Virus record (IMG/VR): IMGVR_UViG_3300028925_010542
Coordinates: 1-32,727 of that record
Source: a virus
Length of the DNA stretch: 32,727 nt
Direction: 5' to 3' (one strand)
This document shows positions 9,556 through 18,341 of the stretch, piece after piece. How positions within the stretch are numbered: the first letter of the stretch is position 1; each line of letters opens with the position of its first letter. The notes below the pieces were generated by a model. It ran no database searches, was not told the origin of the DNA, and was given only the letters and a program-made list of their open reading frames with translations. Both the position numbers and the translations under genes were made by a program.

Positions 9556-9761
9556 TCACAATCCTCACATTGACATACTTTTAAATTATCAGGTATGTCG
9601 GTTCTTGTTATTTCGTTTCCGTCTTTATCTTTGATTGTTAAATCAGTATTGGCCTTTACCATTATGTCTTCAACTTCCAAATCATCTATATGACAACCAC
9701 AATCATTACATACTTTTGTAATAGTTCGTGTTCCGTTTGATGCTATATGTAATTTAATCAT
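9552..9761 (-). CDS. Small Cys-rich, zinc-ribbon-like protein
   Basis: This 69-residue protein has two Cys clusters that could form a metal site: CNDCGCH near residues 18-24 and CQCEDCE at the C-terminal end. The middle (VKANTDLTIKDKDGNEITRTDI) looks like a beta-hairpin insert, so the layout resembles a zinc ribbon. The gene lies between a HAD phosphatase and a PAP2-type phosphatase, overlapping the first by 8 bases and the second by 4. No DNA-binding or enzymatic motif is seen. Metal binding is likely from the Cys spacing; function is unknown. Confidence 0.65.
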   Translation of the reverse strand: MIKLHIASNGTRTITKVCNDCGCHIDDLEVEDIMVKANTDLTIKDKDGNEITRTDIPDNLKVCQCEDCE

Positions 9762-10272
9762 AATTAACTAATCTTGTTATCAGTTTAATATCGGGATATG
9801 TATTTTTTAATTTCTTTACTGCTACTATATTCTTTTTTGAATCATCAAAAAATAATACATCATCATATCCATTTTTTATCTGCTTCTCAATCCAATCTGA
9901 TTTATCCTTTGGATTAGAACTTGATAATGCAACAACATAAACATCATATCCAATATCTTTAAAAAATTGACGAACTGGCTTGTATGCAGCTCTTGCTGTC
10001 AAAATTGTTATTCTTCTATTGCCAGAAGCTTTATAAATATTCTTAAAAACTCTAAACATAGATTTAATCTTTTTGGGTTCGATTACTTTACTAAAATCAG
10101 TAAAGTCAAACTCATCACCCGATTTAGCTTTGTATATTGCGTATTCACCAGTAGTTAGTGTTTTCTTTTTCCCTTTATTAATTACGTGTATTCTTGAATT
10201 AGACTTAACTAATGTATCATCAAAATCAAATACTCGTAATTTCTTTTCTAACAATAATTTTAACTTAATCAT
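9754..10272 (-). CDS. HAD-superfamily phosphatase (possible polynucleotide 3'-phosphatase)
   Basis: This 172-residue protein has the HAD motifs in order: DFDDT (Asp16, Asp18), LTARAA (Thr92), Lys122/Lys124 in PKDKSD and FFDDS (143-144). The fold resembles the phosphatase half of phage polynucleotide kinases and related acid phosphatases, but no kinase P-loop is present. The ATG at 10272 overlaps the upstream stop as ATGA and is preferred over 10284, which has no ribosome-binding site and would add only MGLE. The N-terminus MIKLKLLLEK resembles that of the PAP2-type protein two genes on. Candidate substrates are DNA/RNA 3'-phosphates or small phosphomonoesters. Confidence 0.8.
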   Translation of the reverse strand: MIKLKLLLEKKLRVFDFDDTLVKSNSRIHVINKGKKKTLTTGEYAIYKAKSGDEFDFTDFSKVIEPKKIKSMFRVFKNIYKASGNRRITILTARAAYKPVRQFFKDIGYDVYVVALSSSNPKDKSDWIEKQIKNGYDDVLFFDDSKKNIVAVKKLKNTYPDIKLITRLVNYD

Positions 10273-10985
10273 CTCCAATCCCATAGTTTAATTAAATTGT
10301 AGGTTATACCAATTCCAATTACTGGTTCTGTCATACCTGTTGTGTTATTGTATGCTATACCCAAAAACGGGCCAATTGTTAATTGGTTTCTTGGTGGTTG
10401 TATTTTTTGGATTTCACCCCTACCTCTAATTGTTATACCACCAATATACGTTTCATCAATATACGAAACAAATTCATCTTTATTAATCTTTTCTATCTTT
10501 GGTGTTAAATTAATTTCACCAATTGTATTGACATCAACTTTCTTAGTCGTTAGATAATCATCTTTCCACGCAACCAATACTTGCCCTTTGGTTTCATATT
10601 GACCGACACGATTAACTTGTTTATCTACAAATTTAAATCTATCATTACCTGATATATTAGAAGACAAAGTTGACTTCATAGACATCACTTCAATCTTATA
10701 TTCTAAATCTCTTAGTCTTTCTAATAGTAGTGAGTTTTCTTCACCACGAGTTTCGTTGTGTTCTGCGAAATCTAATAATAGTTCTACATTTTGGTCAGAT
10801 AATAAATTGACTCTATCTTCCAAACTATCTATTAGTTTTTCTTGAACTTGAACTTTTAATCTCAATCCAACAAACTCACGATACAATTGTTTTATATCGT
10901 AATGATTTGCAAAATAAACTGATGCTAATAAAGATAACGATGCTATTAATGAAAGTATATCTTTATAATATTTCTTGAACCGCAT
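10269..10985 (-). CDS. Membrane-anchored coiled-coil protein with C-terminal beta segment
   Basis: This 238-residue protein has one N-terminal hydrophobic helix (about residues 10-26) followed by a heptad-rich region (about 30-100), so it is probably anchored in the inner membrane with a periplasmic coiled coil. The C-terminal 35 residues (TIGPFLGIAYNN..., then PVIGIGITYNLIKLW) look like amphipathic beta strands. The start overlaps the end of the CsgG-like gene by 23 bases. Inner-membrane anchor, coiled coil and a possible outer-membrane-facing end would suit a spanin-like or envelope-bridging protein, though no known spanin family is recognised. It may equally work with the CsgG-like proteins encoded just upstream. 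Confidence 0.65.
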   Translation of the reverse strand: MRFKKYYKDILSLIASLSLLASVYFANHYDIKQLYREFVGLRLKVQVQEKLIDSLEDRVNLLSDQNVELLLDFAEHNETRGEENSLLLERLRDLEYKIEVMSMKSTLSSNISGNDRFKFVDKQVNRVGQYETKGQVLVAWKDDYLTTKKVDVNTIGEINLTPKIEKINKDEFVSYIDETYIGGITIRGRGEIQKIQPPRNQLTIGPFLGIAYNNTTGMTEPVIGIGITYNLIKLWDWR

Positions 10986-11478
10986 TACCTATTGCCTCTT
11001 TCAAAGCTCCACCGAGTTCACTTCTATCGAAAGGTAATTCTTCGTTTATTTGAAAACCAGTAGCACTAATTTCTTTATCAATAGTTCCTACTCCATTACC
11101 ACTAACGACTTTACCCGTCTTTTTATTTAATAATTCAACCACAACTCTAATTTCTGTTGTAGTGGTTTGCTTTTTAAATATTCCAAGTATTGTTGTTGAT
11201 GTTCTTGGTCTTCCAAGATAAACAACTCTTGCTGTTAATTCAAAGTCTGATTCATTTTCTACTAAATCATATCGTGAATCCATTACATTTTCTGTAAGTA
11301 TATTTGTAATACCCAAGAAAATACGAGTGTCTTCTAAACCCTCAACTTCTGCTTGATTAACAAAGTTGTTAATTGTCAAAGTTGGAATTTCTAGTTTGTC
11401 TTGACCAACCATTGTTGGTTCTGGCATTTGTGCATTTACTAATCCAATTAGTAATACGATTAACCATAGTTTCTTCAT
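10963..11478 (-). CDS. Secreted CsgG-like protein, short form
   Basis: This 171-residue protein has a signal peptide ending VNA|Q and lacks a lipobox. The mature part resembles the C-terminal half of CsgG-family (curli secretion channel) proteins: a strand-rich region with VVVELLNKKTGKVVSGNG and a terminal helix FDRSELGGALKEAIGNA that matches the family's closing FD-x-S...A...AI pattern. The ATG at 11478 has AAGGAG six bases before it; an upstream in-frame TTG at 11505 is rejected. Canonical CsgG is about 260 residues and lipidated, so this is a short, non-lipidated relative. It is the second of two CsgG-like genes in the cluster and may form a periplasmic or outer-membrane ring component. 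Confidence 0.65.
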   Translation of the reverse strand: MKKLWLIVLLIGLVNAQMPEPTMVGQDKLEIPTLTINNFVNQAEVEGLEDTRIFLGITNILTENVMDSRYDLVENESDFELTARVVYLGRPRTSTTILGIFKKQTTTTEIRVVVELLNKKTGKVVSGNGVGTIDKEISATGFQINEELPFDRSELGGALKEAIGNAVQEIL

Positions 11479-11488
11479 TTTCTTCTCC

Positions 11489-12475
11489 TTAAAAATTAGT
11501 TCCAAATATTATCGAATAGCTTATATTTCGTTTTCCAATATCATTAACTAACGTATTATATCCTACATAAAACCCAAAATTCATCTTAAAGGTTTCTGTA
11601 AAGTTAAAATCTACATTAAATCCTGGATAAATCAATATAGGACTTTCCAGTAATAAATATTTGTTTTCCGTTTTTAATCCCTCATAATAACGAAAAATCG
11701 TATAACTTACAAAAGTTTGTAAGTTTAAGGTATTGTTTCTCATTTGTATTGGATATCTATACCCATACATACCATTAATGTTTAAAAAATTCTGTCGTGA
11801 TATTTGTCCAACTGATGAACTTATCAATCCAACTTGGTTTACATCTTGCTTAATTACTTTTCCGTAATTACCTGTGATTAACCAATCACTACCCTCAAAT
11901 GTTCTATAATATAATGCTCCTACATTCCAAAAAGCACTTTGTTTCTTTTCTTTGCTCTTACCACTCCTACCATACAACCCTAAGACTTTCTTTAAGTCCA
12001 AAGTAATATTCATAGTGTAGTTAAATTCTTTAGTTAGGTCAAAGTTTTCTTCACTATAAACTGAATTTAGTGAAGTAACCGAACCATAACTATAAAAGGT
12101 ATTAACGATATCTCCACCAATAAAACTTGGTTCCGATGCCGATATATCCTCGTCTTCACTTTCTTCTAATTCTGCCGACAAGCCCAATGTGTTCGCAGAT
12201 GCTAATGCTTCTTCTGCAATATTGACCGCACAAGGAAATAGTTTTTCAAAATCACTATAAACTTGCTGTGTCCAATTTTGTAATGTTCCGTCTGCTACTT
12301 GTTCCCAAGTAAAAAATGCTCTTTGGTTGTAATAAGTTACCCAAAAACCACCTTGTGTTGTTTCAGTTGTATAATTAAGATTAACCGCTTGTTGATTACA
12401 AGGGTCTATATAATTATAACCGAAACCTTGTCCATATAAACTACTTACTAATAATAATGTGAGTAACCATTTCAT
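11489..12475 (-). CDS. Predicted outer-membrane beta-barrel protein
   Basis: This 328-residue protein has a signal peptide (MKWLLTLLLVSSLYG|Q). The C-terminal half is made of alternating aromatic/polar strands and ends in Phe (SIIFGTNF), the usual C-terminal signal of outer-membrane barrels. An N-terminal region with two Cys (DPCNQQ and LFPCAV) may form a disulfide-linked plug or domain, followed by an acidic linker (EESEDEDISAS). It lies between the two CsgG-like genes, starting 6 bases after the first, so a joint role in outer-membrane transport or surface assembly is likely. No specific family is recognised; the call rests on signal peptide, strand pattern and terminal Phe. Confidence 0.65.
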   Translation of the reverse strand: MKWLLTLLLVSSLYGQGFGYNYIDPCNQQAVNLNYTTETTQGGFWVTYYNQRAFFTWEQVADGTLQNWTQQVYSDFEKLFPCAVNIAEEALASANTLGLSAELEESEDEDISASEPSFIGGDIVNTFYSYGSVTSLNSVYSEENFDLTKEFNYTMNITLDLKKVLGLYGRSGKSKEKKQSAFWNVGALYYRTFEGSDWLITGNYGKVIKQDVNQVGLISSSVGQISRQNFLNINGMYGYRYPIQMRNNTLNLQTFVSYTIFRYYEGLKTENKYLLLESPILIYPGFNVDFNFTETFKMNFGFYVGYNTLVNDIGKRNISYSIIFGTNF

Positions 12476-12480
12476 TCATT

Positions 12481-13185
12481 TTACCAACCTCTTTTTTCCA
12501 TTCGTCTTAATACATTTGCGACTGCAGTAATTACTGCACCCGTTGTTGCAAATGAAACGGTAGATTGGTCAAATGACATATCAAGATTTTTTAATAGTCC
12601 TTCACCTTCTTTTGCTGAAGTTCCTAAACCACTACCTGTAATATACTTACCTGTTTCAACTGAAACAAGACGAACTTGAATACCAACCATTGTGGTATTT
12701 TTTAATTTTGCTTTTCTTCTTGATATTTCTTCTTGATTAGATACTGCAAAATCATACAATTCTGCATATACAAAGTATTTAGTTTGTGCAAATTGTCCAA
12801 CACTATCTAATTCATTGTCAAGTAATCCACTAACACTTCTTTCCCACTCTTTAACCATTTTATTTAATACTTCTTCTTTTTCTTCAACGAAGTAGAATCG
12901 TCCTGCTTCTTCCAAGACTTCAATGATTCTTTGAGTTACACCAAATCCAACTCGTTTATCACGAAGTTCTGGATAGGCATTTAGAATATTTTCTGAAATG
13001 GAAATCTGAATTAATTGAACTCCTTCAGGTTCTCCATCAAACCACTTGATATCATCAAGAGTTTTTTCTGCTTCATAGGAAGCTATCTTTGATTGAACTT
13101 TTGTTTTACCTGATTGAGCTTCAACACTTGATGTTGCACACCCAAATAAAAATAATGTTATTAATAAACTTAATATATGTTTCAT
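12481..13185 (-). CDS. CsgG-family outer-membrane lipoprotein
   Basis: This 234-residue protein has a lipoprotein signal peptide with lipobox LFGC (Cys16), then CsgG-like features: VGFGVTQRIIEVLEEAGRFYFVEEKEEVLNKM, matching the family's 'short-strand, L...grF.vveR' region, a TKYFVYAELYDF strand, and a closing helix FDQSTVSFATTGAVITAVANVL. CsgG forms the outer-membrane secretion channel for curli subunits; relatives occur widely in FCB bacteria. No curli subunit (CsgA/B) or CsgE/F gene was seen nearby. AAAGGA precedes the ATG. The gene follows the ferredoxin and precedes the barrel gene. A phage-encoded CsgG-like lipoprotein is unusual. Confidence 0.75.
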   Translation of the reverse strand: MKHILSLLITLFLFGCATSSVEAQSGKTKVQSKIASYEAEKTLDDIKWFDGEPEGVQLIQISISENILNAYPELRDKRVGFGVTQRIIEVLEEAGRFYFVEEKEEVLNKMVKEWERSVSGLLDNELDSVGQFAQTKYFVYAELYDFAVSNQEEISRRKAKLKNTTMVGIQVRLVSVETGKYITGSGLGTSAKEGEGLLKNLDMSFDQSTVSFATTGAVITAVANVLRRMEKRGW

Positions 13186-13189
13186 TTTT

Positions 13190-13477
13190 TTATCCTTTAA
13201 AAAAGTTTGCGTTAATTTCTACGAACCTTTGCATATCTTCTGGTGCGTCATCTTCATCCCAAATAGCATCTACTGGACATTCAGGTTCACACGCTCCACA
13301 ATCAATGCATTCTTCTGGGTCTATATAAAGTTGTTTCCCAGAAAGGTCTTTCATACCAATAACTTCTGCTCCTAATCCTGTTGGGTCGTCTGGTCCGTGA
13401 ATACAATCCACTGGACAAACTTCAACACACGCTGTATCACAAGTACCGATACACGGTTCTGTTATGATAAAGGTCAT
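13190..13477 (-). CDS. Bacterial-type ferredoxin with two Fe-S clusters
   Basis: This 95-residue protein has nine Cys in the arrangement of 7Fe/8Fe ferredoxins: C9-x3-C13-x3-C17-x3-C21-P-V-D-C25, then C57-x2-C60-x2-C63-x3-C67-P. Compared with Azotobacter FdI, C9, C17 and C67 would bind one cluster and C21, C57, C60 and C63 the other, with C13 or C25 as possible extra ligands. It would act as a low-potential electron carrier in the cytoplasm. The start overlaps the stop of the 45-residue gene as ATGA, and the CsgG-like lipoprotein gene follows. Phage ferredoxins of the plant-type 2Fe-2S class are known; this is the other, bacterial class. Its redox partner is not encoded nearby. Confidence 0.9.
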   Translation of the reverse strand: MTFIITEPCIGTCDTACVEVCPVDCIHGPDDPTGLGAEVIGMKDLSGKQLYIDPEECIDCGACEPECPVDAIWDEDDAPEDMQRFVEINANFFKG

Positions 13478-13611
13478 TTTTCTGTTTTGCCAAACCCTAA
13501 CATCATCAATTGTACCATAAGAATTAATCTTTTAATTAAAGATAAATCATCTCGTTTCAATTCATTTTGTATGTGTTTGAGTTTTGCTTCTTTTGTTTTA
13601 AATATTTGCAT
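13474..13611 (-). CDS. 45-residue small protein, coupled on both sides
   Basis: This short gene was found by reading the gap between the coiled-coil and ferredoxin genes. Its ATG (13611-13609) overlaps the upstream stop as TAATG, and its TGA (13476-13474) overlaps the ferredoxin start as ATGA. The product has a basic N-terminal helix (MQIFKTKEAKLKHIQNELKR) and a Met/Leu-rich hydrophobic stretch (LIKRLILMVQLMMLGF) that could sit in or on a membrane. No family is recognised. The exact double overlap is the main evidence that it is translated. Confidence 0.6.
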   Translation of the reverse strand: MQIFKTKEAKLKHIQNELKRDDLSLIKRLILMVQLMMLGFGKTEK

Positions 13612-14015
13612 TAGTTTTTAAACCTTGCTAATGGGTCACCGTGAAACTCTTCAATCATTACCTTAAGATTCTTAATAGAACCTTTAAGTTCTTTAATATC
13701 ACGATTAAGATTTACGATATCCTTTTCTAATGGTGATAAATCAACATTACCTACGGTATCTAATTTTTCTCTTAGGTAAACGATATCATCATCAAAACTT
13801 TGAATTTTGTTAGTGACTATTTCTATATCACTTGCTTCTGCAAATCCTTCAACTACTTCTTCTAATGAATCTATTCTACCTGTAAAAGTATACCAACCTG
13901 CTATCAAACCTGATAACACTGTTACTAAACTTACGATATTTGTTATTGATAATCCGAATTTTTTATTCTGAGCATCATCTAACATTTTTTCTGTATCTAC
14001 TACTTTTTTTGCCAT
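13611..14015 (-). CDS. Single-pass membrane protein with coiled coil
   Basis: This 134-residue protein has a short cytoplasmic N-terminus, one transmembrane helix (about residues 21-42, ITNIVSLVTVLSGLIAGWY) and then a periplasmic heptad-rich region to near the end (SLEEVVEGFAE..., DIVNLNRDIKELKGSIKNL). AGAGGA precedes the ATG. The topology matches an inner-membrane spanin subunit or another envelope-tethered coiled coil. No partner outer-membrane spanin lipoprotein is recognisable, although the CsgG-like lipoprotein gene lies two genes downstream. The gene sits directly after the Cys-repeat peptide. The function is uncertain. Confidence 0.65.
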   Translation of the reverse strand: MAKKVVDTEKMLDDAQNKKFGLSITNIVSLVTVLSGLIAGWYTFTGRIDSLEEVVEGFAEASDIEIVTNKIQSFDDDIVYLREKLDTVGNVDLSPLEKDIVNLNRDIKELKGSIKNLKVMIEEFHGDPLARFKN

Positions 14016-14119: not shown

Positions 14120-14974
14120 CTAAAAATCAAACCCGAATGATAACATCAAGGTTTCGTTATGGAAACTCTCGGTATTGTAAAGATATGCTAATGATATATC
14201 CACAACATTAGTATTGATACCACCACCTATTGTGATGTAATCAACATTAAATTCTGGTTCTGAATAATACCCTAATCTTAAATTACCTACTTCTCCTAAT
14301 AAATATTCACCACCAACTCCAAATGAAGAATAATCTTCAAATAGTTTTATATCTGATAGTAAACTAAAACTACCAAAACTTTGTTTAATACCAATACCTA
14401 ATGACATTGGTAAACTTGATGATTGGTCTGCAAATTTCGTTTCACCACCTAAGTCTTTTAATACAAGACCTAATGATGTGTTACCGAATACTTTATGAGC
14501 ACCGATATCAACTCCATAATTCATATCAATATCTATATCATCAATGAAACTATGATTGTAAAGATTAAGTCTTGCACCCAATAACCAATCTCCTAATTCC
14601 ATAGCATAACTTCCACCAACTCTTAGTGATGATGAATCAAAATCTCCTGTTATGATACCACCAATATCTGCAGCTGTTTGAGTTCCGTAATCAAAGTAAA
14701 ATACTTCTACCGAAAATCCCATACCACTTGTGTATTGTAGATTTTGATATCCCATATCATCAACAAGATTTGGTAACCACTTTACATATGATGTTTCTTG
14801 GTGTGATTCAAGTCCTGCAAATGCTGGATTATGAAATAGGTTTTTAGAATTTGAATCCGCAATACCTGAATTTCCTGCTCCTGCACTATGAACACTTGGG
14901 TTCAATGTAAATATACTATTTGCCTGTGCGAATAGTGTTCCTGTTAATAGTAATAAACCTAATAATTTTTTCAT
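14120..14974 (-). CDS. PorV/PorQ-like outer-membrane beta-barrel protein
   Basis: This 284-residue protein has a signal peptide ending LFA|Q. Right after it comes a PorV/PorQ-type start, SAGAGNSGIADSNSKNLFHNPA, matching the family's 'SARSAALGGA...NPAGL' pattern. Strand-rich sequence follows and ends in Phe (LMLSFGFDF), as in outer-membrane barrels. PorV is the type IX secretion shuttle that collects cargo leaving the translocon and passes it to the cell-surface attachment complex; the wider family also includes FadL-like transporters. AGGAG precedes the ATG, and the start overlaps the upstream stop as TAATG. The T9SS cargo gene lies two genes upstream in the same run. Confidence 0.78.
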   Translation of the reverse strand: MKKLLGLLLLTGTLFAQANSIFTLNPSVHSAGAGNSGIADSNSKNLFHNPAFAGLESHQETSYVKWLPNLVDDMGYQNLQYTSGMGFSVEVFYFDYGTQTAADIGGIITGDFDSSSLRVGGSYAMELGDWLLGARLNLYNHSFIDDIDIDMNYGVDIGAHKVFGNTSLGLVLKDLGGETKFADQSSSLPMSLGIGIKQSFGSFSLLSDIKLFEDYSSFGVGGEYLLGEVGNLRLGYYSEPEFNVDYITIGGGINTNVVDISLAYLYNTESFHNETLMLSFGFDF

Positions 14975-15372
14975 TATTTAACTCCTCTGAAATTTCTTTC
15001 TTTTCTATGGTGTTTGTTTCGGTTGTCCATATCATCTTTTCCAATAACATATCCCAAACTAAAAATCACAATACTACCAAGTATCATACGATTTTTCTTT
15101 GAATGTATTTGGTGTTTATAATTTTTGTTATTAAATTTATTATGATGATGTTTATGTTTATTGACGATTTTTCTATCGTGCATTTTCATTCTCATCATCA
15201 TTTCTTCAACTTGAACTTGTCTGTGGTTATCTTTTTGTTTCCACATTCTTTCTTGTTGAAGTTGGTCCTTGTGTTTAATCATTTCTCTATGTTCTTTTTT
15301 AGCTTCATCAGTATCATTGATTGACTGAGCCATTAAAGGAAATAGAAATAATAGTAATAATAATTTTCTCAT
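14974..15372 (-). CDS. Secreted His/Met/Lys-rich protein with one membrane helix
   Basis: This 132-residue protein has a signal peptide (MRKLLLLLFLFPLMA|Q). It continues with a strongly charged, helix-forming region that contains MMMRMKMHDRK (58-68) and KHKHHHNK (72-79), in total about 12 His and 11 Met. A hydrophobic segment (96-111, MILGSIVIFSLGYVIG) and a basic C-terminus follow. The His/Met-rich region could bind Cu, Ni or Zn; the hydrophobic segment with small residues could insert into a membrane. AAGGAG precedes the ATG. It lies between the T9SS cargo and PorV-like genes. No family is recognised. Confidence 0.65.
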   Translation of the reverse strand: MRKLLLLLFLFPLMAQSINDTDEAKKEHREMIKHKDQLQQERMWKQKDNHRQVQVEEMMMRMKMHDRKIVNKHKHHHNKFNNKNYKHQIHSKKNRMILGSIVIFSLGYVIGKDDMDNRNKHHRKERNFRGVK

Positions 15373-15380
15373 AATACTCC

Positions 15381-18341
15381 TTATTTAATTATTGTAAATT
15401 TCTTAGACTTTATTTTGTTTTCTGTTTCCATTACAAATAGATAAATACCTGGTTCCAAGTCTTCATATCCACCATATCCACCTTCACCTATTACATCTGG
15501 TAAGTCTGAGAAAGTATAAGTGTGCATTCCGTCATTAACGACTTCATCTAATATTACACCGACTTTTTGTCCGTTAGCGTTATAAATACTAATCATTACT
15601 TGACCAGTTTGTTCCATAAAGAATTGGAAGTTAATAGATTCGTGTTCACTATTGTTATATGGATTTGGATAAACATAAGTCATTTCATCTTCTGATGGTT
15701 GTCCACCACCGAATGCCCAAAACTTATTCCATATTCTAATCTTACCACTTTGTCTATTCATAAGTAAGTCATCACCTGCTGGATTACCAGCGTTAGCTTT
15801 TCCTACAAATTGTAAGTCTGCTTCTGTCCACTCTTGGTTATTGTTTTCATTTAGTTTTGAATTAAATACTAATTGTAATCCAACCATTTCTTCTGTAATG
15901 TAGTAATCTTGTGGTGCATTGTTCGGTGAGTTATCTAATCCACCAAATGAAATTGTTTTGTATCCGTCTTCGTCAACTTCACTTTCATTTAAGTAAGTCA
16001 TCCACGGCCCTGGCAGTAATCCTGTTTGAGCGTCTATAAATTGTAATTGTTCTTCTTTATATCTAACTTCAAATTCAAATCCTGCTACTTTAGTTGGTAG
16101 TCCTGTTATTTCATCTACACTTGGTGTAATTGTTAATGGAACTACAACTTGGTTACCCATTTGAACTTTAACACTTCCGTCATCTGGTAATGATAAACTC
16201 ACACCTTGTGTTGAGTTCATACTTCTACTACTTCCATTATAGGTGTTGTTTGTGTTGGTATATGTCCAAGCTGTTGGTGCGTCATCACAACTTGCATTTA
16301 CACAATTTTGATTCCAAGAACTATCTCCTGAACTTCCGTTCTGAACCGTATGTGTTGACCAACGATAATATGTTGTTCCTGTGTAAGCGTCTTGATATCC
16401 ATCTGCACCTTGAGATGTTTCTAAAACTTTTGTTCCTGTTAAATTCATATCACCTGTAAAGTGAAGTGCTATTTCAGCTTGTGTATAATCTGGATTTACA
16501 TCTCCGTCAGTTGAAACATCAGGGTCATCAAAGGTTGATGTTCCTGCTAAAATTACTACTTGTAAAGTATCATTACCTGTTACGACATCATCCATCAAAG
16601 CATTTAACCAAACAACTCCCCCAGCGTCTTGTGTTAGTGTTGTTGTTTCTTGTGGTAAGCTGTCATCCCAAAATGCTGTAAATTCTCTTCTTTGTTTTGT
16701 ATCACCACCTCTAAGTGCTTGGTAATAACTAAGACTTTGTGCATTTCCGTTTGCTTTTAAATTATCTATACTTGACCATTGTTGATAAGTGTTTCCATTA
16801 ATGTGAGTATATGATGTTGAGAATACTCCACTTACATACGCCCATAAGAAATAAGCATCATTTAATTGGAACAAGTCATCTCCGTCAACATCACCAATTA
16901 AATATGCACTTGGTGAATCTACATTAATACTTGTTTCATTTATAAATTTATTTGATTGGAAATTAAATGATGCGATTGCGTCATTAATATTTGTAATAGC
17001 ATATCTATCCAATTCCAATTGTGAATGACTTCCGATATCATCATTTGCGTCTGGTGGCCAGAACGAAACACGATAAGTATTGTTTCGTGGTAATTGGATA
17101 TTGTAATATCCATTTTTATCTGTATAGGTGTAATCAAAATATGATACTCCTAAGAATCCTTTACCTGGTAAAGCTTGTGATGCCAAAGCTGTTGGTGTGG
17201 TTGTGTCTGTTAATTTATAATAGTAATAAGTTCCACTAGCGTCTCCAATAACATCATCACTTAAATCTTCATCTGCTGTGTTTGCGTCATCAGCAATACT
17301 TTCTATATTATACCAATTACTAAATGGTGTATTACCATCTACATTTGGATTTGCTTCATCCAATTCAAAAACAACTTTCCAATATGGATATGTTTTTTGA
17401 ACAAATGTATCGTCGTCTATTCCGTCTGAGTCTGTATTGGTTTTTTCTCCAATATATCTACCGAAACCTTCAATGTCAACAAGTTTTGGATGTAGAGAAA
17501 TATCTCCTCTTGCACCACCATTGTTTACTGAATCAGTTCCCCAATTTCCGTCAATGTATACTTTGTAATCTAATAAGTAATCATCAGATACATAAGTATA
17601 ATATCCAGTTCCACCACTATAAAGTGTTGGTATTCTAAATGAACGTGGTTGATAATTATCAACTACATCATTAATTCTAAATGTTAATTTAAGAACTTGT
17701 GCTTGATTTCCAGAACCATTACCAAATGTAAAATCTGGTGTTCCATCACCTGCTCCATTATTTTCAGCGATATCAACTCCGTGACTTACCATAGTAACTC
17801 TTAACCAATCATAACCTGAATCATTTGCTGAAGTTTCATTCCCACTACTTTGAATAGTATCAGTATATCCTACATTGGAATAATGAACCACCTCAAATGA
17901 ATAGTCTGTTGAATTAGTTGATGTTTCATCACCCTCAGTCCAACCTGATATTTGACTACCTTTAATTACTCGTGAGTTTCCTTGAGTCCAAGCATTGATT
18001 GATGTTTCTTGTGTAGTTCCATCATTTTCAATCCAAGTGATTAAATCATTATCAAATGCTATGTCAAATCTAAATGTAGTAATATCTTTACCTACATCGT
18101 CAAGAGTGACTTCTAATTCTAAAATATCATCTCTCCAAGAATCAAAATTATTATTTGTTAGGGCTGGTGTTGATATATCATCTGCCAAAAATGTTTGTAA
18201 TTGTACAGTTGTTTGGGCTTTCCACCAATATTCTGGTGTCTTCCACTCCCCTATTTGTTTAACTCTTATAATTGGATTCTGTGCAAAGACAAATCCAAAC
18301 ATAACTGCTGTCATAACTATTTTTTTCATAAAACGAAACAT
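15381..18341 (-). CDS. Large secreted protein with T9SS C-terminal sorting domain
   Basis: This 986-residue protein has a signal peptide ending FVFA|Q. A beta-rich N-terminal half follows, then a dockerin/EF-hand-like loop DVDGDDLFQLND (about 485-500). A cohesin-like segment (about 725-870) contains VQMGNQVVVPLTI and VAGFEFEVRY. The last roughly 95 residues are a type A T9SS sorting domain: YVYPNPYNN near 888, a G-x-V...GMHTY middle, then LEPGIYLFVMET and the KKFTIIK ending. Such domains direct export through the type IX system and surface anchoring in FCB bacteria. GGAG eight bases before the ATG supports this start. It opens the envelope-gene block, directly after tail genes. The enzymatic role, if any, is not visible; an adhesin or surface-layer role is plausible. 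Confidence 0.85.
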   Translation of the reverse strand: MFRFMKKIVMTAVMFGFVFAQNPIIRVKQIGEWKTPEYWWKAQTTVQLQTFLADDISTPALTNNNFDSWRDDILELEVTLDDVGKDITTFRFDIAFDNDLITWIENDGTTQETSINAWTQGNSRVIKGSQISGWTEGDETSTNSTDYSFEVVHYSNVGYTDTIQSSGNETSANDSGYDWLRVTMVSHGVDIAENNGAGDGTPDFTFGNGSGNQAQVLKLTFRINDVVDNYQPRSFRIPTLYSGGTGYYTYVSDDYLLDYKVYIDGNWGTDSVNNGGARGDISLHPKLVDIEGFGRYIGEKTNTDSDGIDDDTFVQKTYPYWKVVFELDEANPNVDGNTPFSNWYNIESIADDANTADEDLSDDVIGDASGTYYYYKLTDTTTPTALASQALPGKGFLGVSYFDYTYTDKNGYYNIQLPRNNTYRVSFWPPDANDDIGSHSQLELDRYAITNINDAIASFNFQSNKFINETSINVDSPSAYLIGDVDGDDLFQLNDAYFLWAYVSGVFSTSYTHINGNTYQQWSSIDNLKANGNAQSLSYYQALRGGDTKQRREFTAFWDDSLPQETTTLTQDAGGVVWLNALMDDVVTGNDTLQVVILAGTSTFDDPDVSTDGDVNPDYTQAEIALHFTGDMNLTGTKVLETSQGADGYQDAYTGTTYYRWSTHTVQNGSSGDSSWNQNCVNASCDDAPTAWTYTNTNNTYNGSSRSMNSTQGVSLSLPDDGSVKVQMGNQVVVPLTITPSVDEITGLPTKVAGFEFEVRYKEEQLQFIDAQTGLLPGPWMTYLNESEVDEDGYKTISFGGLDNSPNNAPQDYYITEEMVGLQLVFNSKLNENNNQEWTEADLQFVGKANAGNPAGDDLLMNRQSGKIRIWNKFWAFGGGQPSEDEMTYVYPNPYNNSEHESINFQFFMEQTGQVMISIYNANGQKVGVILDEVVNDGMHTYTFSDLPDVIGEGGYGGYEDLEPGIYLFVMETENKIKSKKFTIIK

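Follow-up and report, generated by a model that had tools for sequence, protein, structure and literature searches.

Can a bacteriophage bring to its host not only a cargo of the type IX secretion system (T9SS) but also the outer-membrane protein that would carry it? This question is raised by the window (the whole stretch of DNA analysed here, a 32.7-kb linear virus record), in which an earlier note had read one open reading frame as a PorV-like shuttle paired with a T9SS cargo. The window includes T4-like baseplate wedge and SbcC-like genes; between its baseplate/tail genes and the SbcC-like gene lies a seven-gene envelope cassette that is headed by the cargo-carrier pair and comprises the following features:

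15381..18341, minus strand: T9SS type A cargo, 986 aa, with a signal peptide, cohesin-like and dockerin-like stretches and a C-terminal sorting domain
15381..15713, minus strand: type A C-terminal domain (CTD) of the cargo, about residues 877-986, with a Y-P-N-P motif and the lysines KxKKFT
14974..15372, minus strand: 132-aa secreted His/Met/Lys-rich ORF between cargo and carrier
14120..14974, minus strand: PorV/PorQ-family outer-membrane barrel, 284 aa, proposed cargo carrier (by family profile, tree, AF2 model and hhalign)
13611..14015, minus strand: coiled-coil protein of 134 aa with a transmembrane segment (relatives: 126-137 aa)
13190..13477, minus strand: FdxA-like ferredoxin, a gene of the cassette in only some of the T4-like members
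12481..13185, minus strand: 234-aa lipoprotein (lipobox LFGC), CsgG-like by a weak match of 0.018, which is below cut-off
11489..12475, minus strand: 328-aa exported protein, by sequence a probable outer-membrane protein
10963..11478, minus strand: exported protein of about 171 aa, or 180 aa if read from an upstream TTG; its likeness to CsgG was judged only by eye
10269..10985, minus strand: 238-aa inner-membrane-anchored coiled coil, whose C-terminus resembles an outer-membrane beta motif; weak DUF6808 match

A HAD-type phosphatase (9754-10284, minus strand) matches phage polynucleotide kinase (phrog_415, 1.7e-11).

Family of the barrel protein

The open reading frame at 14120-14974 (minus strand) opens with ATG and encodes 284 aa; its sequence begins with a Sec-type signal (MKKLLGLLLLTGTLFAQ) and ends with Phe, a terminal residue typical of outer-membrane barrels, and it contains the hatch motif NPA (N49-P50-A51). 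The NCBIfam PorV/PorQ family profile NF033709 matches it at 1.9e-29 with 103.3 bits (curated subfamily cut-off 90 bits), and its phage relatives score 95-125 bits. Against the strict PorV (NF033710) and PorQ (NF033711) equivalogs it reaches 61.8 and 57.1 bits, respectively, below the cut-offs of 250 and 220 bits, and Pfam PorV (PF19572, cut-off 27) does not match it. A second phage carrier leans to PorV (80.9 vs. 53 bits), whereas that of contig L035 leans the opposite way (PorV 52 vs. PorQ 61.5 bits). Judged by these profiles, the protein is a divergent member of the PorV/PorQ family.

Within that family, its nearest kin is the PorV of the probable host lineage (described below). Blast aligned host PorV with phage carriers over nearly their full length at about 26-34% identity (best matches 29-34%), and hhalign joined the carrier to host PorV over its full length (1.7e-26), as against 3e-5 for the second host paralog. 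In a tree, the phage clade (100/100) fell on the PorV side together with host PorV and Flavobacterium johnsoniae PorV, and the split between this side and the PorQ-leaning host paralog was likewise supported at 100/100; the phage stem is long (2.6 changes per column), so that the tree does not fix the exact sister of the phage clade. A PDB sequence search with the phage carriers returned chance matches only (DARPins), and a first genome scan with a phage carrier as query returned no relative.

The AF2 model of the carrier (pLDDT 78.4, pTM 0.78) is predicted to be a 14-strand barrel with a hatch. Its best fold match is PorV in the translocon bound to the RemA CTD (8gl6_F, 1.9e-10, Z 30.8), nearly tied with FadL (2r88_A, Z 29.3) and followed by BamG (9n2d_B, Z 26.0); FadL mutants at the NPA motif are also among the matches. 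Because PorV, FadL and BamG have this fold in common, the fold alone cannot discriminate PorV from FadL, and it is the sequence that does so. By Blast, profile comparison and tree, we conclude that the carrier is a PorV-family barrel, not a FadL, and is nearest to host PorV. The PorV-like identity first proposed for this reading frame is thus borne out by the family profile and by its nearest kin, and the phylogeny that had been suggested as a check separates the phage clade from the PorQ-leaning paralog.

Linkage of carrier and cargo in phage contigs

We collected 19 contigs from IMG/VR by scans with the carrier and, separately, with the cargo as query; all phage records in this comparison are fragments. 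The carrier follows the cargo in 19/19 (17 distinct carrier sequences), either directly or past one small insert, and among these contigs we found neither a complete cargo that has room downstream yet lacks a carrier nor a carrier without a cargo. A ribosome-binding-like AGGAG or GAGGG precedes the carrier in most contigs. This linkage is far beyond chance, and the pairing of the barrel with a type A cargo in a phage, which the earlier note had described from one sequence, extends in fixed order to every contig. The spacing of 'two genes apart' given there is correct for the window and the near-identical L002, in which the 132-aa ORF is inserted (L019 has a homologue), and the intervening gap in these three is about 400-500 bp; it does not apply to nearly all other relatives, where the genes are mostly 8-11 bp apart, overlap by 4 bp in two contigs (a gap of -4 bp) and are separated by 186 bp in one. 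The inserted ORF has no counterpart at this position in most relatives, and in L035 and L249 its homologues occupy a later place among the cassette genes, indicating that it hops within the cassette; that this His/Met/Lys-rich protein binds metal is a guess.

The cargo itself is matched by TIGR04183 over residues 890-984 (32.3 bits, cut-off 23), as are three of its relatives (35-37 bits), and a Sec signal sequence was seen by eye. In 11/11 contigs checked, the window included, there is exactly one sorting-domain protein. The C-terminal lysine region KxKKFT is invariant in 16 phage cargos, and no region of the cargo other than the CTD has relatives in host genomes. A model of the CTD predicts seven strands at low confidence (pLDDT 62.7), with T9SS CTDs among its matches at background Z scores of 6.0-6.2. 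Two further stretches of the cargo, at about residues 483-506 and 722-774, are a D-x-D-x-D run that looks dockerin-like by eye and a weak match to cohesin; through these the cargo could conceivably assemble with itself on the surface.

How exclusive the pairs are can be judged from L019 (10001-14299), in which the cargo is 85% identical to that of the window and the carrier comes from the L035 clade. On sequence grounds, this arrangement is a recombination between the cargo and carrier genes, showing that pairs are reshuffled while their linkage is kept. Distances between carriers and between CTDs correlate weakly (r = 0.23), a value blurred by recombination. Both observations argue against a strict one-to-one specificity of carrier for cargo, and the cross-clade pair suggests a loose, PorV-like recognition of CTDs by the carrier.

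The pair and the genes behind it (a coiled-coil membrane protein, sometimes the ferredoxin, the CsgG-like lipoprotein, the 328-aa protein, a small exported protein and the inner-membrane coiled coil) recur in unchanged order in two phage backbones. One is a T4-like myovirus; the other, which differs from it in head and tail, is represented by L025, L031 and L096, where the cassette adjoins portal and/or capsid genes (a tape-measure gene is present on the L025 contig as well). Between the second phage type and the window, the CsgG-like and 328-aa proteins are 72-83% identical and the carriers about 48-52%. We found no host relatives of the 328-aa protein (17 genomes) or of the CsgG-like genes (199 genomes) except for a match of 68 residues whose reading frame is interrupted by a stop. 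Since the cargo CTD and the carrier have host kin and the other tested cassette genes do not, the host-like parts of the cassette, the ferredoxin aside, are the two T9SS parts. Among isolated phages, neither PorV nor the cargo was found in 50,697 records. Host PorV as query retrieved three short, unannotated 'Bacteriophage sp.' records of human-faecal origin at 25-27% identity, one of them (MT836897) marked UNVERIFIED; we took these to be likely bacterial contigs and rejected them as phage PorV.

Probable hosts and a proposed secretion route

The best pointer to the host phylum is, by sequence similarity, the cassette ferredoxin, which among cellular sequences comes closest to those of two Neomarinimicrobiota genomes (69 and 68%; all others ≤61%). 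Among 199 Neomarinimicrobiota genomes, the carrier's best matches are full-length and lie in genomes of 0.7-1.0 Mb. Gene similarity thus indicates that the hosts are probably streamlined Neomarinimicrobiota (Marinimicrobia), which are tiny-genome ocean bacteria. Among 17 small genomes of this lineage, which may be incomplete, the SprA translocon exceeds its cut-off in 15, sorting-domain proteins are present in 15, and all 17 have a strong PorV-family gene, which has a nadD-like neighbour at the inspected loci and matches Pfam PorV at 2.3e-21 and F. johnsoniae PorV (6h3i) at 1.5e-20. The second, PorQ-leaning paralog occurs in 13/17 and, in the loci inspected, lies directly downstream of a sorting-domain protein. 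Four such loci (L236 2763-7082, L237 3579-8469, L238 3741-8433 and L240 2760-7073) encode a CTD protein of about 1,080-1,270 aa followed by the PorQ-leaning barrel, with a TonB-receptor-like gene ahead of the pair, and are a chromosomal precedent for cargo-barrel pairs. A PorU sortase over the family cut-off was found in none of the 17 genomes, where only its C-terminal, CTD-bearing region was matched; the host may therefore lack the step from translocon to attachment complex, although a divergent sortase may be present.

We propose that with the 284-aa protein the phage supplies a PorV-type carrier for the type A cargo whose gene lies just upstream, a reading to which we assign a probability of roughly two in three. 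The PorV of F. johnsoniae closes off the side opening of SprA and binds the CTD through its extracellular loops, an input of energy pulls the two away, and the backbone of PorV N87 and F115 holds the invariant lysine of the CTD (PMC10994853). The counterparts of these two residues in the alignment are D72 and Y96 of the phage carrier, inside the highly conserved segments WLPNLxDDMxY and FYFxYGxQ; position 72 is Asp in nearly all phage and host sequences, and position 96 is Tyr in the phage rows inspected. By analogy with the F. johnsoniae structures (PMC10994853), carrier and cargo would be made from one operon late in infection and exported by Sec, the carrier would insert in the outer membrane and dock at the lateral opening of host SprA, and the cargo CTD would bind the carrier's extracellular loops so that the pair leaves together. 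The cargo would then end on the host surface, either after a hand-off or held by the carrier as its anchor; the two outcomes are equally possible, the anchor role being at most slightly favoured because no PorU sortase was detected. What the cargo might do there is a guess, such as blocking re-adsorption by sister phages. Against this reading, the host has its own PorV, and in F. johnsoniae a single PorV suffices for every type A cargo (PMC12618676); the proposal does not explain why a second one would be needed.

Other roles for the barrel have to be weighed against this carrier reading, and the least improbable of them, unlikely as we hold it to be, is a PorQ- or BamG-like accessory barrel that serves the assembly or attachment of another envelope machine made by the cassette (the CsgG-like lipoprotein, the 328-aa protein and the inner-membrane coiled coil) rather than transport. 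Such a role would fit the seven-gene order kept in two backbones, the BamG barrels of the same fold and the host's PorQ-leaning paralog, which likewise adjoins a CTD protein; the profile scores, however, lean to PorV or are undecided for the phage proteins, L035 being the opposite case, and the tree sets them apart from that paralog. Somewhat less probable still is that the phage replaces or dilutes a host receptor barrel of the PorV family with an altered receptor or decoy, the cargo acting as a second factor of superinfection exclusion. Phages can use barrels of the FadL fold as receptors (T2, by annotation, uses E. coli FadL), and the carrier gene adjoins tail genes and its product is expected to be surface-exposed; against this, the loops show no receptor-type diversification, the one around residues 66-76 being among the most conserved parts, and this reading gives no reason for the gene's constant place after a CTD cargo.

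We give the least credence to FadL-type uptake or a general porin, by which small molecules would enter the infected cell and the place behind the cargo would be incidental. This had been put forward as the main alternative, and the common fold, with nearly tied Z scores, and the NPA motif, which occurs in FadL too, are compatible with it; yet hhalign against E. coli FadL gave a probability of 1% over 27 columns, Pfam FadL (PF03349) has no match to the carrier up to E 1 and reaches 0.03, far below its cut-off, with the L025 relative, and the linkage to a T9SS cargo is invariant. We therefore rejected FadL uptake as the main reading on its lack of FadL sequence similarity. Apart from these readings of the barrel, the coiled coils of the cassette (within 10269-14015, minus strand) could be spanin- or holin-like, which would make lysis another possible role.

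Relation to known systems and implications

Like F. johnsoniae PorV (6h3i, 8gl6; PMC10994853, PMC5562754), the phage carrier combines the family signature with a barrel and N-terminal hatch, conserved segments at the positions of the CTD contacts and a type A CTD cargo; unlike it, the carrier is phage-encoded, very divergent and shorter (284 vs. 402 aa), and it occurs once per cargo in an adjacent gene, whereas F. johnsoniae PorV is a shared housekeeping protein. The arrangement of a cargo followed by its own outer-membrane carrier resembles that of the SprF/PorP shuttles downstream of type B cargos, where SprF serves as the anchor of its cargo and the two are presumed to be required in matching amounts (PMC12618676, PMC9143113); the phage pair differs in joining a PorV-family protein to a type A CTD, and in doing so in a virus. 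The Marinimicrobia pairs described above, from the inferred host lineage, likewise place a PorV/PorQ-family barrel after a type IX-tagged protein, and differ in being chromosomal, in belonging to the other paralog clade, in their unrelated cargo body and in the TonB-receptor-like gene upstream.

T9SS sorting domains on phage genes have precedents in the parts of the literature available to us: Cryophage encodes type A cargos (PMC7468147) and crAss-like gut phages carry sorting domains (PMC6949934). As far as the consulted portions of these two reports go, those cargos (an endoglucanase, a GH39 protein and a PA14 protein) are variable and no carrier is mentioned; in the present phages, by contrast, a single cargo family stays joined to its carrier. 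A literature search that left most subscription journals outside its reach gave no account of a phage with a PorV-family carrier. Phage T9SS cargos are thus already known, and the phage-borne carrier alongside is, as far as the literature found goes, the new element. These phages appear to bring both the cargo and the carrier for a viral protein on the host surface. A broader and more tentative possibility, which we consider rather doubtful at present, is that Marinimicrobia phages exchange the seven-gene module as a surface-display route of their own on host SprA, composed of a tagged protein, a private PorV-type carrier as its anchor and CsgG-like, outer-membrane and inner-membrane partners, and amounting to a viral secretion accessory system common to unrelated phage types.

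If the carrier reading is true, a virus supplies the outer-membrane carrier of type IX secretion, and the logic of 'each cargo its own carrier' extends from type B to type A tags. The question of whether a carrier alone decides the destination of a T9SS cargo when the sortase is absent is thereby made testable, and the finding bears on the possible effect of some uncultured ocean phages on the host surface late in infection.
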